A stretch of 39,813 nucleotides of DNA, from IMG/VR virus record IMGVR_UViG_3300047496_000214, positions 1-39,813 of that record. One strand, written 5' to 3'. Each line of letters starts with the position of its first letter. Positions within the stretch are counted from its first letter, which is position 1. The translations under genes and the position numbers were made by a program. The DNA is from a virus. The notes under the pieces were generated by a model that had not been told where the DNA came from, did no database searches, and was given only the letters and a program-made list of their open reading frames with translations. Shown here in pieces: positions 614 to 29,593 of this stretch.

Positions 614-833
614 TTAACCACCGTTTCAATTTATACAAAATTTCGACTTTATCGCGAAGCCAATCCATCTCCCATATGATATATACTTTGTAACCCTGTT
701 TGCATGCAATTTCAATTTTATGCTGATCTTTATTCCAAATCTCTCTGGCGGTTTTCTTACATCTAGATATAACATCTTCGGCTAAGTATTTTCTCGGATC
801 AGCATGCCAATAAGTTCCATTAAACTCAATCAA
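600..833 (-). CDS. Vsr-like homing endonuclease located between split-intein halves
   Basis: A 77-residue product with IEFNGTYWHADP near the start and a GYKVYIIWEMDW stretch later, both typical of the very-short-patch-repair (Vsr)-like homing endonuclease family found with phage inteins and introns. The only standard start in frame is the TTG at 833, overlapping the TGA of the upstream polymerase/intein gene. Family-like sequence (KGEFDFRFKSCL) continues in the same frame upstream of that start, to about 866, and contains the Asp of the usual DF motif that is probably catalytic. With the TTG start the enzyme would lack it. Either a -1 shift from the upstream frame supplies it, or the gene has decayed by one base. 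The gene lies in the -1 frame relative to both intein halves. Confidence 0.75.
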   Translation of the reverse strand: MIEFNGTYWHADPRKYLAEDVISRCKKTAREIWNKDQHKIEIACKQGYKVYIIWEMDWLRDKVEILYKLKRWLNANI

Positions 834-3115
834 ACAAGACTTAAATCGGAAATCAAATTCGCCTTTTCAATGACAGAAATAATTATATCATCCGATTTTA
901 TATCACGTGGTTTTATCTCTTGGAGTTGGCCGTCTCTTTCAATCATGACAGAATGATCACCTGTACATATAATTTCATTTCCTAGATTATCTGTAATTTT
1001 CCATCTCTCTTTTTTTACTCTATGTCTATAGACATAGTTTATATTCTTAAATATTGCTTTGTCTTGAAGAGGATCATAGCTAAGAACCTTAGTATCCTCA
1101 CACGATGCATACTCTTTTTCACCGTCCATCCAACGAACTGGGAGCAAATTAAATAACGCTTCTACTGATAAAGTGCCCCTCGTGGTATGTATTTTAGAAT
1201 CATTCGCAAAACTGTCCGTATCAGCATAGATAATAGCATCGCCTTTGTAGTCATATTTTCCAACTACAATTTCATTAATTTTGGAATTCATATGCTTGGC
1301 GACACACCGTCCCGTCAGAGTAACAGATTTACCAATTCTCTTATCTGAAAATTTCATGACTTCATTAAGCAATGCTCCGTACAAACTATTCAACAAAATC
1401 TTTCTAGTTTGCTGCCTTTGATTCCAAAATTTTGCTTGTATCTGAAAAGAAAGTTTATCTTCTTCAGAAGTAGCTTTTTCCGCTAATTCTTCAAATTCTC
1501 TCTGCTTAGCTTGCATCTCCATACGTTCGGTAAACCACTTACCGAGAAGCATAGGAATTATACCATCAGTGTTAGTTTTGAAAATTGTACCGTTAGCAGT
1601 AATACAGAGATGATTATTAGGATTGAATATGTAATCGTAAAGATCACACGCCAACATATTTTTACTTGTACCATTTTCAAAATCAATAGTTAAAATTGTT
1701 TTGTCATTTGGAGTAAACATATGTTCAACTTCATATGTTCTAAAAATACCTTCCCATGCTTCTGCACGTTTGTTTTTTCCAAGTTTTTTAACTTTAGCTG
1801 CGATAAACGCATCAGTTTCTATTGGGCGAATATGACCAAAAATCGTTTCGATACTCATATTTAATGAGCGAATAACAGATGGATACAAAGAAGTAATATC
1901 TACACATCCAATTTCTTCTTGTAATCCAGTCTTAGGATCGGCAACATATGCCCCAACAACCGGAAGATGTCGTTCTTCTTCATCATCTTCGTCATATTCT
2001 TCAATTGATACTTTACGAGATGGAACTACTAAACCCAATAGTTTATGAGTTTCATTAGTTATAGCTTGTTCAACCAAGGAAACCGTTCCCATGGTAGTCT
2101 TGAGCATTACACAATTAGCATGAGCTACTTGATTAGCCAGTTCGATGAACTTCTTTTTAGCATCGATTTTTACTAAAAGAAAAGTATCTTGTCGGTTATA
2201 TTCAATAAATCTGTCAAAATCTTTATTATAAAGATCGTCTAAAGTTCCTTCATATTGTGTCTTTGATCCGCAATCTTCATGTTCACCGACAAAATTTAAT
2301 CCATAAGAATGAAGTTGCTGTGGATTATGCTTTTGATAAAGTTCTAGGTAATCTAGATGCACCCGTCCAATTAAATCATAGGTCTGATGTTCTCTCTTAA
2401 ATTTTTTAGTCTTACCTTCTTTTGGAAGTTGCCCCCAAAGACACATATCACGAGTTCTATCTTTCCCAAGGACACGTGTAATGCGATTGACGAGATAAGG
2501 AATATCGAAAAACGTAGAGTTCCAGCCAGAGCAAACATGCACAGGTTCAAAAATTTCTAAGAACTTTCTAAGAAGTTCTGCTTCACTATCAAAAAGATAA
2601 GTATCTGTAAAATTGGAAACAATCCGCTCTCCATCTTCCATAGTATAGGTTTTAGGGAGTAAAACCAACGTAATCATCTTTTGATTATTGGAAGTGTATA
2701 AAGAAATAGCAGTTATAGCATTGAAAGGATCGGTAATAGGAGCGTGGCCACGATCTTTATCAAAATCAGTCTCAATATCGAAAAAACCTATATTTAATTC
2801 AGGAGCATCCAGACCCATATAATGATCAGCTAAACATCTGAACTCTGGTTTTATGTCACTCTCAAATATTTTTACTGGAGGTTGATTCGATATAGGAGAT
2901 ATAATCTTTCCAAGTTCCTTACGAAACTTCATGGAATTGTTAGTTGAATATTTCTTACAGCTATCTCCAAAAATAGATTTATGACTACCAGATGGATGTG
3001 AATAATAAAACACATACTCAGCCGGATATTCTACCGTATGAATAGAACCATCTACTATCTCTGAAACATAGACCTTATCTTTCTTTCGATCATGAAAAGC
3101 ATCTAAAAAACTCAT
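830..3115 (-). CDS. DNA polymerase (T4 gp43-like) N-terminal part fused to split-intein N fragment
   Basis: A 761-residue family B polymerase fragment. The 3'-5' exonuclease motifs are Exo I DIETD (about 113-117), Exo II GWNSTFFDIPYL (197-208) and Exo III YNRQD (306-310). Polymerase motif A is DITSLYPS (406-413), motif B is KILLNSLYG (572-580), and motif C stops at YADTD (630-634). Residues 635-761 are an intein N fragment: it begins with Ser (SFANDSKIHT, block A) and has block B as CTGDHSVMI near 717-725. The rest of the polymerase is encoded by 1-613. Family knowledge says the YADTD site is a recurrent intein insertion point in PolB. A TAAATA late-type box lies upstream at 3146-3141, 26 bases from the start. 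The ATG at 3115 is the first in frame and gives a full-length N terminus. Confidence 0.92.
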   Translation of the reverse strand: MSFLDAFHDRKKDKVYVSEIVDGSIHTVEYPAEYVFYYSHPSGSHKSIFGDSCKKYSTNNSMKFRKELGKIISPISNQPPVKIFESDIKPEFRCLADHYMGLDAPELNIGFFDIETDFDKDRGHAPITDPFNAITAISLYTSNNQKMITLVLLPKTYTMEDGERIVSNFTDTYLFDSEAELLRKFLEIFEPVHVCSGWNSTFFDIPYLVNRITRVLGKDRTRDMCLWGQLPKEGKTKKFKREHQTYDLIGRVHLDYLELYQKHNPQQLHSYGLNFVGEHEDCGSKTQYEGTLDDLYNKDFDRFIEYNRQDTFLLVKIDAKKKFIELANQVAHANCVMLKTTMGTVSLVEQAITNETHKLLGLVVPSRKVSIEEYDEDDEEERHLPVVGAYVADPKTGLQEEIGCVDITSLYPSVIRSLNMSIETIFGHIRPIETDAFIAAKVKKLGKNKRAEAWEGIFRTYEVEHMFTPNDKTILTIDFENGTSKNMLACDLYDYIFNPNNHLCITANGTIFKTNTDGIIPMLLGKWFTERMEMQAKQREFEELAEKATSEEDKLSFQIQAKFWNQRQQTRKILLNSLYGALLNEVMKFSDKRIGKSVTLTGRCVAKHMNSKINEIVVGKYDYKGDAIIYADTDSFANDSKIHTTRGTLSVEALFNLLPVRWMDGEKEYASCEDTKVLSYDPLQDKAIFKNINYVYRHRVKKERWKITDNLGNEIICTGDHSVMIERDGQLQEIKPRDIKSDDIIISVIEKANLISDLSLV

Positions 3116-26072: not shown

Positions 26073-26636
26073 TTAAGAAAATGGATCGGTAATGACTATT
26101 TGGTTATCTGCGCGTTTCATGAAATTTCCTTGATGCCAATCCATCCAACGTCCTCGATATTTTCCAAAGAATTTCAATTCTTTTAATGTGTCATAGAGTA
26201 AAGCATTTTCGTCTATTTCTGTATATGATGGATTTCCATCAAATCTTATGTCATTGATTATAGTGTATAAAGACTTCCATTCTTCATCTGATATAGGGAT
26301 AAGTTTTTCTATTCTAATCATATATACATCGTCGGTTATTTTTATTGGTATTCCTTTAAATATCGGAAGACAAGGATTTCCAGGATTCTGATTACAGAAT
26401 TTTATGAAAGTAGGATAACCCATATTGTTTGAATCAAAAATTTTTACTACTAAATTTGGATTGGATTTATATGAATAAACATATGCAAAGGCGCCGTCGC
26501 CTATTTTTGTGAAGCCGTATTTTTTCATTAGAGATGTTATGAAGTGTGGCGAACCAGAACGTTGATCTGTCATGTTACCAACATGAATTTTTTTAGGTTT
26601 TATTGCTTTTATGCCATAAAGTTCATTAATACGCAT
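26073..26636 (-). CDS. Small protein kinase-like protein, second of a tandem pair
   Basis: 187 residues. A kinase-like core: a Gly-rich GDGAFAYVYSY, the ATP-lysine strand NLVVKIFD, a hinge-like VYMIRIEKLIP, the catalytic MDWHQGNFM (Asp, Asn) and ITDPFS in place of DFG. This set matches small APH/fructosamine-kinase-like folds found in T4-type phages. The N terminus MRINELYGIKAIKPKKI is shared in pattern with the upstream copy and belongs to the tag class of this window. It starts three bases after the upstream stop. The substrate is unknown. Confidence 0.7.
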   Translation of the reverse strand: MRINELYGIKAIKPKKIHVGNMTDQRSGSPHFITSLMKKYGFTKIGDGAFAYVYSYKSNPNLVVKIFDSNNMGYPTFIKFCNQNPGNPCLPIFKGIPIKITDDVYMIRIEKLIPISDEEWKSLYTIINDIRFDGNPSYTEIDENALLYDTLKELKFFGKYRGRWMDWHQGNFMKRADNQIVITDPFS

Positions 26637-26639
26637 GAT

Positions 26640-27230
26640 TCAGAAACTTCCAAAAGCAAATGGATCAATAATAACAATTTGGCCATTTTTTCTTTTCATA
26701 ACATTGTTGGAATGTATGTCAAATGTGCAGTGACCAGCAAAAGCACGTAATTTGACTAATGTATTATATAATTCCTTATCTTCGAGTGACGCGAGCCGGG
26801 CTACTATTTCTGGAGGCACCAATCTTTCGTTTACATAGCTGATCATTTTTTGTAATGGAACCCAATCTCTGGGTTTTAGTTTATATAATCTTTCTATTCT
26901 AATCATCCTAATATTTTCAGATATTTTTATACTGTTTCCTTTAAATACCGGCAAAAAAGGATTTCCTGGATTTTCTTTACAAAATCTGATAAATAATAAA
27001 AAACCTTTATCCTCTTTAATGTCAAATATCTTTACAACCAGATTCGGGTTGGTTTTATAAGCAAACACTGTAGAAAACATACCGAATTCACCAATAACAC
27101 GAAAACCATAATTATTCATAAAATCAATTAAATTTTGATTATCATTATATAACTCGTTCTTTGGAGATATATTTTCAGGTTTTATCCTTTTGATGCCTTG
27201 TAATTCAGTGATTATTTCTTTGAAACGCAT
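26640..27230 (-). CDS. Small protein kinase-like protein, first of a tandem pair
   Basis: 196 residues, paralogous to the next gene. Core motifs are GEFGMFSTVFAYKTNPNLVVKIFD, IRMIRIERLY, FDIHSNNVMKRK and IVIIDPF, again with an apparently complete catalytic set. The N terminus MRFKEIITE ends in an (I/L)xE site as in the T4 capsid-targeting peptide, followed by QGIKRIKPENI. A TAAATA box lies four bases before the ATG, so the pair is late and leaderless. If packaged, these would be kinases delivered with the DNA. Confidence 0.7.
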   Translation of the reverse strand: MRFKEIITELQGIKRIKPENISPKNELYNDNQNLIDFMNNYGFRVIGEFGMFSTVFAYKTNPNLVVKIFDIKEDKGFLLFIRFCKENPGNPFLPVFKGNSIKISENIRMIRIERLYKLKPRDWVPLQKMISYVNERLVPPEIVARLASLEDKELYNTLVKLRAFAGHCTFDIHSNNVMKRKNGQIVIIDPFAFGSF

Positions 27231-29269: not shown

Positions 29270-29511
29270 GAAAGTGAGGGACTTTCTGTTGCTAGGACTC
29301 AACTTTCGTTAAGTGTCCCTCTACCCCGGATTGATTACGCCGCTAAGCGATCTTCCATGACAAAATTATCATTGTCATTTTCAGTTGTGTCACTATTTTG
29401 TTCCTTCGTCACCAATCGAAACCAGTCATCCCCATAAAAATAAAAAGGGTGGTGGAGATGAAGGGAGTTGAACCCTTGTCTTGATGATTATCTAACAACG
29501 TCAAACATGAC
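29270..29511 (-). ncRNA. ssrA: Circularly permuted two-piece tmRNA
   Basis: On the minus strand, the acceptor piece comes first: P2 strand TCATCAA (29487-29481), T-arm AAGGG-TTCAACT-CCCTT (29477-29461), acceptor strand CATCTCC and A-CCA ending at 29450. A 16-base AT-rich linker (29449-29434) follows. The coding piece then starts GGGGATGACTGGTTTCGATTGG (29433), the hallmark tmRNA 5' end. GGGGATG pairs with CATCTCC, and TTGGTGA (29415-29409) with TCATCAA. The tag frame ends ENDNDNFVMEDRLAA with TAA at 29337-29335. A GAGGGAC/GTCCCTC helix enclosing a GAAA-capped hairpin closes the 3' end before a T-rich run. The resume codon is not certain (GAA, or a codon up to 9 bases earlier). It would rescue stalled ribosomes and tag peptides for Clp proteases. 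Confidence 0.88.
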
Positions 29512-29517
29512 GATTCC

Positions 29518-29546
29518 TATTTAGCAAAAAACAATTGACGTGTCAA
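29518..29546 (-). promoter_or_regulatory. Sigma70 promoter of tmRNA
   Basis: TTGACA (29546-29541), exact 17-base spacer, TAAATA (29523-29518) on the minus strand. The expected start is near 29511, just upstream of the acceptor piece. Confidence 0.7.
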
Positions 29547-29593
29547 TAACATACTGACCTCCACCATAAAAATCTACATCTCCACTTTTTAAC

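Follow-up and report, generated by a model that had tools for sequence, protein, structure and literature searches.

A permuted tmRNA gene of two-piece layout in a T4-like phage genome fragment

The window, meaning the whole 39,813-nt stretch of DNA analysed, is a 39.8-kb IMG/VR fragment that encodes a tail sheath, a family B DNA polymerase, a thymidylate synthase and an endonuclease VII-like protein, which bears out an earlier sequence-based note that had placed it in a T4-like phage. Every part of the element described here lies on the minus strand, a point on which the earlier note was silent. A putative promoter (29546-29518) was read from the sequence as TTGACA (29546-29541), a 17-nt spacer and TAAATA (29523-29518). 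It is followed by an acceptor piece at 29515-29450, delimited by covariance-model alignment (RF04321), covariation and an MFE fold and with an approximate 5' end, which begins with a hairpin (CGTCA-TGTT-TGACG) and the 5' strand of helix 2 and continues through a T-arm (AAGGG-TTCAACT-CCCTT, 29477-29461) and the acceptor 3' strand CATCTCC (29460-29454) to an A and the CCA that ends at 29450. The 16-base linker that had been claimed could be read directly (CCCTTTTTATTTTTAT, 29449-29434) and is expected to be removed by processing. The coding piece extends from 29433 to 29276 in the RF04321 alignment and to 29273 in the complete RF01849 alignment; it opens with GGGGATG-ACTGGTTTCGA at 29433, contains the GGGGATG...TTTCGA motif, and comprises, in order, the acceptor 5' strand GGGGATG, the D-loop TGGTTTCGA, the 3' strand of helix 2, the tag frame and a 3' pseudoknot-type hairpin. 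The 3' end (29328-29264, CCGGGGTAGAGGGAC...CCTAGCAACAGAAAGTCCCTC; fold z -2.8) consists of a 7-bp GAGGGAC/GTCCCTC stem, a nested ACTTAAC-GAAA-GTTGAGT hairpin and a U-tract that is possibly a terminator, and it agrees with the conserved GCAACAGAAA..CTCC terminus of alpha_tmRNA, as do the 3' ends of the relatives L130 and L131. The next gene downstream, at 29179-28568 on the same strand, encodes a NADAR-domain protein (PF08719, 150 bits; TIGR02464) and is given as context.

tmRNA is an RNA that releases stalled ribosomes and tags incomplete proteins. A cmscan search matched the window to RF04321 (tmRNA_permuted) at 29512-29335 on the minus strand with 74.4 bits (E = 1.3e-12), well over the cut-off of 47, and the acceptor half with its CCA was found 5' of the coding half, the arrangement by which RF04321 is defined. 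The element is thus a genuine permuted tmRNA gene with a two-piece layout in a T4-like phage. The alphaproteobacterial character that had been proposed for this layout held in part: RF01849 (alpha_tmRNA) aligned over its full length (model positions 1-355) to 29550-29273, nearly the interval of the earlier note (29270-29546), at 42.9 bits (E = 1e-12), below the cut-off of 50, and RF01850 (beta_tmRNA) gave a partial match of 45 bits against a cut-off of 84. Of the checks that had been suggested, the permuted model therefore passed, while RF01849 stayed under its cut-off and ARAGORN called no tmRNA gene in the window. RF04321 can also be misled: at L002, L009 and L016 a tRNA-Ala lies a few nucleotides upstream of a one-piece tmRNA and imitates the permuted form, giving false calls of 51, 36 and 51 bits, respectively.

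The two pieces can be joined by pairing visible in the sequence, as the earlier note had it: the acceptor stem is paired at 7 of 7 positions and the T stem at 5 of 5, G3-U70 is present, and the expected helices, helix 2 included, reappear in an MFE fold of the region formed by the tRNA-like domain (TLD) and helix 2. The energy of that fold was not below that of shuffled sequences (z +0.8) and is uninformative. For covariation we compared 14 permuted TLDs (the window, four relatives and nine other viral contigs), whose pieces were cut by hand at conserved motifs and aligned with MAFFT, independently of any covariance-model fitting. Across this set 98.8% of acceptor- and T-stem cells were paired, compared with 51-60% in slid-partner controls; both sides were altered in 7 of the 12 stem pairs, and no shuffle reached the covariation score. 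The acceptor stem and helix 2, by which the two pieces pair, are read from the sequence, and covariation backs the acceptor stem. G3-U70, the alanine identity signal in the tRNA-like domain, was invariant (14/14).

A GGAGATG upstream of the element, at 29583-29559 on the minus strand, together with TGGTGGAG, perfectly complements the acceptor 3' strand and CCA region; because the 7-mer is missing from the relatives, this complementarity is probably due to chance. The same GGAGATG would allow a tRNA gene with inserts, or a standard tmRNA, to start at 29583, since it too can pair with CATCTCC, and the tRNA model (29583-29453, 33.4 bits) and the standard tmRNA model (29583-29450, 35.1 bits) both match there on the minus strand; a tRNA-Ala beside a one-piece tmRNA is, as noted above, able to mimic the permuted form. 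Such a reading would nevertheless require two inserts of 55 and 16 nt, uses a GGAGATG that precedes the promoter and that the relatives lack, and leaves a tag that is not followed by a T-arm and CCA, while the permuted reading scores double. We consider it highly improbable.

The promoter proposed earlier, TTGACA-17-TAAATA, recurs in comparative data. The window and three relatives (L129, L131 and Phosso) share a TTGAC-17/19-TAAATA site placed 57-59 nt ahead of the acceptor 3' strand, and a looser version (TTGACG-17-TATCAT) is carried by the fourth relative, L130; by chance, TTGACn-17-TAnAnn occurred in 15 of 4000 random 130-nt stretches of the contig. A consensus promoter scan did not list the site because TAAATA lacks the final T, and the comparative footprint is the better promoter evidence of the two. 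The L131 site can also be read as TATAAATA, a T4 late motif, so transcription may be timed early or late. CTAAATA, with 10 occurrences against 11.3 expected, was rejected as a promoter motif used throughout the phage.

An open tag frame runs to CTTAGCGGCGTAA (LAA-TAA, stop codon 29337-29335), in agreement with the earlier description, whereas its start is less certain than had been claimed. It runs from 29376 to 29335 if GAC is the resume codon (tag DNDNFVMEDRLAA, 13 aa) and from 29382 to 29335 if GAA is (tag ENDNDNFVMEDRLAA, 15 aa). An A at -4, which is essential for the resume codon in E. coli (PMC2481249), precedes both codons and no other candidate near the tag start. Alignment with L129 puts GAC opposite the alanine codon without any gap, and GAC follows the last helix 2 strand by 12 nt; at -5, GAA has a C, which is tolerated in E. 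coli, and GAC an A, which is impaired there. We lean slightly toward GAC (about 60:40), and the full tag peptide would be expected to be ADNDNFVMEDRLAA or AENDNDNFVMEDRLAA, depending on the resume codon. A 7-bp hairpin (ATGACAA/TTGTCAT) covers the start of the frame, which counts against a working rescue RNA. In either case the resume codon is acidic, whereas an alanine codon is used in all 17 of the other permuted tmRNAs compared. An alanine resume codon is common without being universal, and is typical of tmRNA rather than defining.

The same region is shortened in the window. The model columns of pseudoknot 1 are deleted in the covariance alignment, and 33 or 39 nt separate the D-loop from the start of the tag, as opposed to 49-92 nt in the 17 others. 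Pseudoknot 1 is found in most tmRNAs (PMC1168896), yet E. coli tmRNA in which it was swapped for single-stranded RNA still tags efficiently (PMC4236655); it is typical of tmRNA, not defining. An assembly error that deleted about 27 nt may lie behind the unusual tag-start region. The loss of pseudoknot 1 and the non-alanine resume codon could mean reduced activity.

Other phage tags departed further from the usual form. Permuted tmRNAs in phage sequences L025 (4464-4850, minus strand), L030 (11214 to the contig end, minus), L160 (1445-1893, plus) and L161 (1968-2416, minus) encode a 28-residue tag, ATASTKGSFKFSGKGVKLASA[A/R]REAVMA, that is followed by two stop codons and has no LAA end. This tag is borne by two clearly distinct tRNA-like backbones, and the L160 gene had no match among phage records. 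A related tag start, AKANTGEVTVSGKNVKL, is interrupted by the contig end in L014, and a phage permuted tmRNA at L032 (746-1118, plus) has a 27-residue tag, ATNSDSMRKDNVLAFVPRIAVPMQMAA.

The window's tail sheath is nearest to those of Sinorhizobium phage Phosso and Agrobacterium phage Atu_ph07 (45-48% identity), on which basis the carrier very probably belongs to their group of jumbo T4-like phages. Megablast of half of the window against phages gave no match. Two further features of the window were recorded. The family B DNA polymerase ORF (830-3115, minus) matches the N-terminal splicing region of an intein at residues 636-725 and ends soon afterward, and may thus represent one half of a split intein; and two adjoining ORFs at 26073-27230 (minus), each similar to a phage protein kinase that inhibits host transcription, are possibly a tandem duplication.

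Within the group the tmRNA gene is distributed unevenly. Phosso carries a permuted tmRNA (113 bits; PV764938.1, 349596-350198, minus) that is absent from the record's annotation, and three large related IMG/VR contigs (G050, G044 and G074) have one as well; linker lengths in the relatives range to about 370 nt. No permuted tmRNA scored above threshold in Atu_ph07 or the 543-kb contig G072, and L049 and L084, which are nearest by tail sheath, retain flanking genes but have no tmRNA in the corresponding interval. Given these four cases, the gene is accessory in the group. The neighbours of the tmRNA in the window had no counterparts near the relatives' tmRNAs. SmpB genes were found in G044 (L134, 330541-330969, 192 bits), where SmpB and a permuted tmRNA occur together, and in G072 (L135, 449907-450335, 176.5 bits), which has SmpB and no permuted tmRNA over the cut-off. 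With permuted tmRNAs in four relatives and SmpB in two giant contigs related to them, ribosome rescue appears to be part of an accessory translation kit of Atu_ph07-type jumbo phages.

Searches for a source of the gene yielded candidates that did not hold. With the tmRNA alone as a blastn query, the matches listed were mostly tRNA-Ala T-arms. Matches to the coding 5' end were discarded as close relatives: they have no CCA upstream and resemble one-piece phage tmRNAs. A genome pattern scan for a bacterial donor returned only Gallionellaceae/Nitrosomonadales betaproteobacteria, and the D-loop-tag spacing was a normal 66 nt in the one measured.

The window also encodes a ClpA-like AAA+ unfoldase (18650-16407, minus) with Clp_N, two AAA modules (Pfam) and an IGF loop at residue 619; it scored 861 bits with TIGR02639, under the cut-off of 993. 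ClpA-like genes occur in Atu_ph07 and G072, both of which lack a recognised tmRNA, and were absent from the tmRNA-bearing phages tested outside the group. Because the distributions do not coincide, a link between unfoldase and tmRNA, in which the former would act as downstream partner of the phage tag, is rated as no more than a possibility.

Taken as a whole, we assign a probability of roughly 0.87 to the reading that a jumbo T4-like phage here carries a permuted ssrA gene whose RNA rescues ribosomes together with host SmpB during infection and tags proteins for Clp proteases. The gene's own sigma-70-type promoter would give a single precursor, acceptor half first, from which host tRNA-processing enzymes would excise the 16-nt linker to leave two RNAs held together by the acceptor stem and helix 2. 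The tRNA-like domain would, by identity rules, be charged with alanine through G3-U70, and the molecule would presumably use host SmpB, since the window encodes none. In infected cells it would then enter ribosomes that have stalled on broken mRNA, adding (A)DNDNFVMEDRLAA or (A)ENDNDNFVMEDRLAA, and the LAA end would direct the product to host ClpXP/ClpAP, possibly with the phage ClpA-like unfoldase. The likely gain is that ribosomes stay available while phage and host nucleases break mRNAs.

The features in which the window copy is unusual also bear on other explanations. A streamlined phage tmRNA, without pseudoknot 1 and with an acidic resume codon and a phage-specific tag that is possibly handed to the phage ClpA-like unfoldase for phage-directed proteolysis, is conceivable and rather unlikely. 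The missing pseudoknot 1 and non-alanine resume codon would likewise suit a decoy, a tmRNA-like RNA that damps trans-translation in the host by tying up host SmpB or ribosomes. Such a role has been suggested for mycobacteriophage DS6A, whose tmRNA has no tag; this TLD-only form is a known kind, and strong inhibition of tmRNA by a molecule similar to it has been reported (PMC4131195). Unlike the DS6A RNA, however, the window copy has an open tag frame, a start signal, an LAA end, a stop codon and a conserved 3' end, and we regard this explanation as improbable. Slightly less probable again is that a host-derived gene has lost its function. The alpha_tmRNA score of 42.9 bits is lower than in all four relatives (56-108 bits), pseudoknot 1 is deleted, and the gene is not kept in the nearest relatives; against this, the acceptor and T stems are unbroken, and G3-U70, the tag frame, the promoter and the 3' end are all retained.

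As a functional rescue RNA, the element would offer, through its lost pseudoknot 1 and acidic resume codon, a natural test of minimal tmRNA requirements. Its tag sequence would let mass spectrometry tell phage tagging from host tagging, so that the role of phage tmRNAs in infection becomes testable.

Among known systems, one close counterpart is that of Phosso, a related jumbo phage (tail sheath 45%) that likewise has a permuted tmRNA, a ClpA-like gene and a promoter (TTGACT-18-TAAATA) positioned as in the window; it differs in its linker of about 370 nt, in retaining pseudoknot 1, in its tag (ANDNVSTKVALAA) and in its alpha-type T-loop. That linker is far longer than usual. The tmRNAs of G050, G044 and G074 share with the window the phage group by tail sheath, the permuted form, the promoter layout and G3-U70, and differ in having the pseudoknot 1 region and an alanine resume codon; their tags are ANDNVSMDYALAA, ANDNVFAMAA and ASNDNFKMDTRLAA, respectively, and G044 encodes SmpB in addition. 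The Sinorhizobium jumbo phage AP-J-162, of the Atu_ph07-like group, is listed with a tmRNA (PMC11242549), and huge phages have been reported to carry tmRNA and SmpB (PMC7162821). Outside this group, the two-piece tmRNA described for the OM43 myophage Melnitz and marine phages is likewise a permuted tmRNA in a myophage; it differs in the marine host and in the glutamine riboswitch reported alongside. For a public database of phage genomes, the same study put the number of putative two-piece tmRNAs at 53 (PMC9004378). Permuted tmRNAs are also present in the cultured phages Marzo, XacN1, DLP6 and BUCT628 (119-137 bits). Stenotrophomonas phage Marzo (Menderavirus, MZ326868.1; 119 bits), whose tmRNA annotation is deposited, is, like the carrier of the window, a T4-like phage, as its relatives Mendera and Moby are described to be, whereas its tmRNA is of betaproteobacterial type (RF01850, 94.6 bits), lies within a tRNA cluster and encodes the tag VAANDDSYTVRIAA. 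Melnitz, Marzo, the listed tmRNA of AP-J-162 and the 53 putative cases contradict the earlier view that a permuted tmRNA is unusual for a T4-like phage; the gene in the window is one further example of an already known kind of phage gene, with some unusual details.
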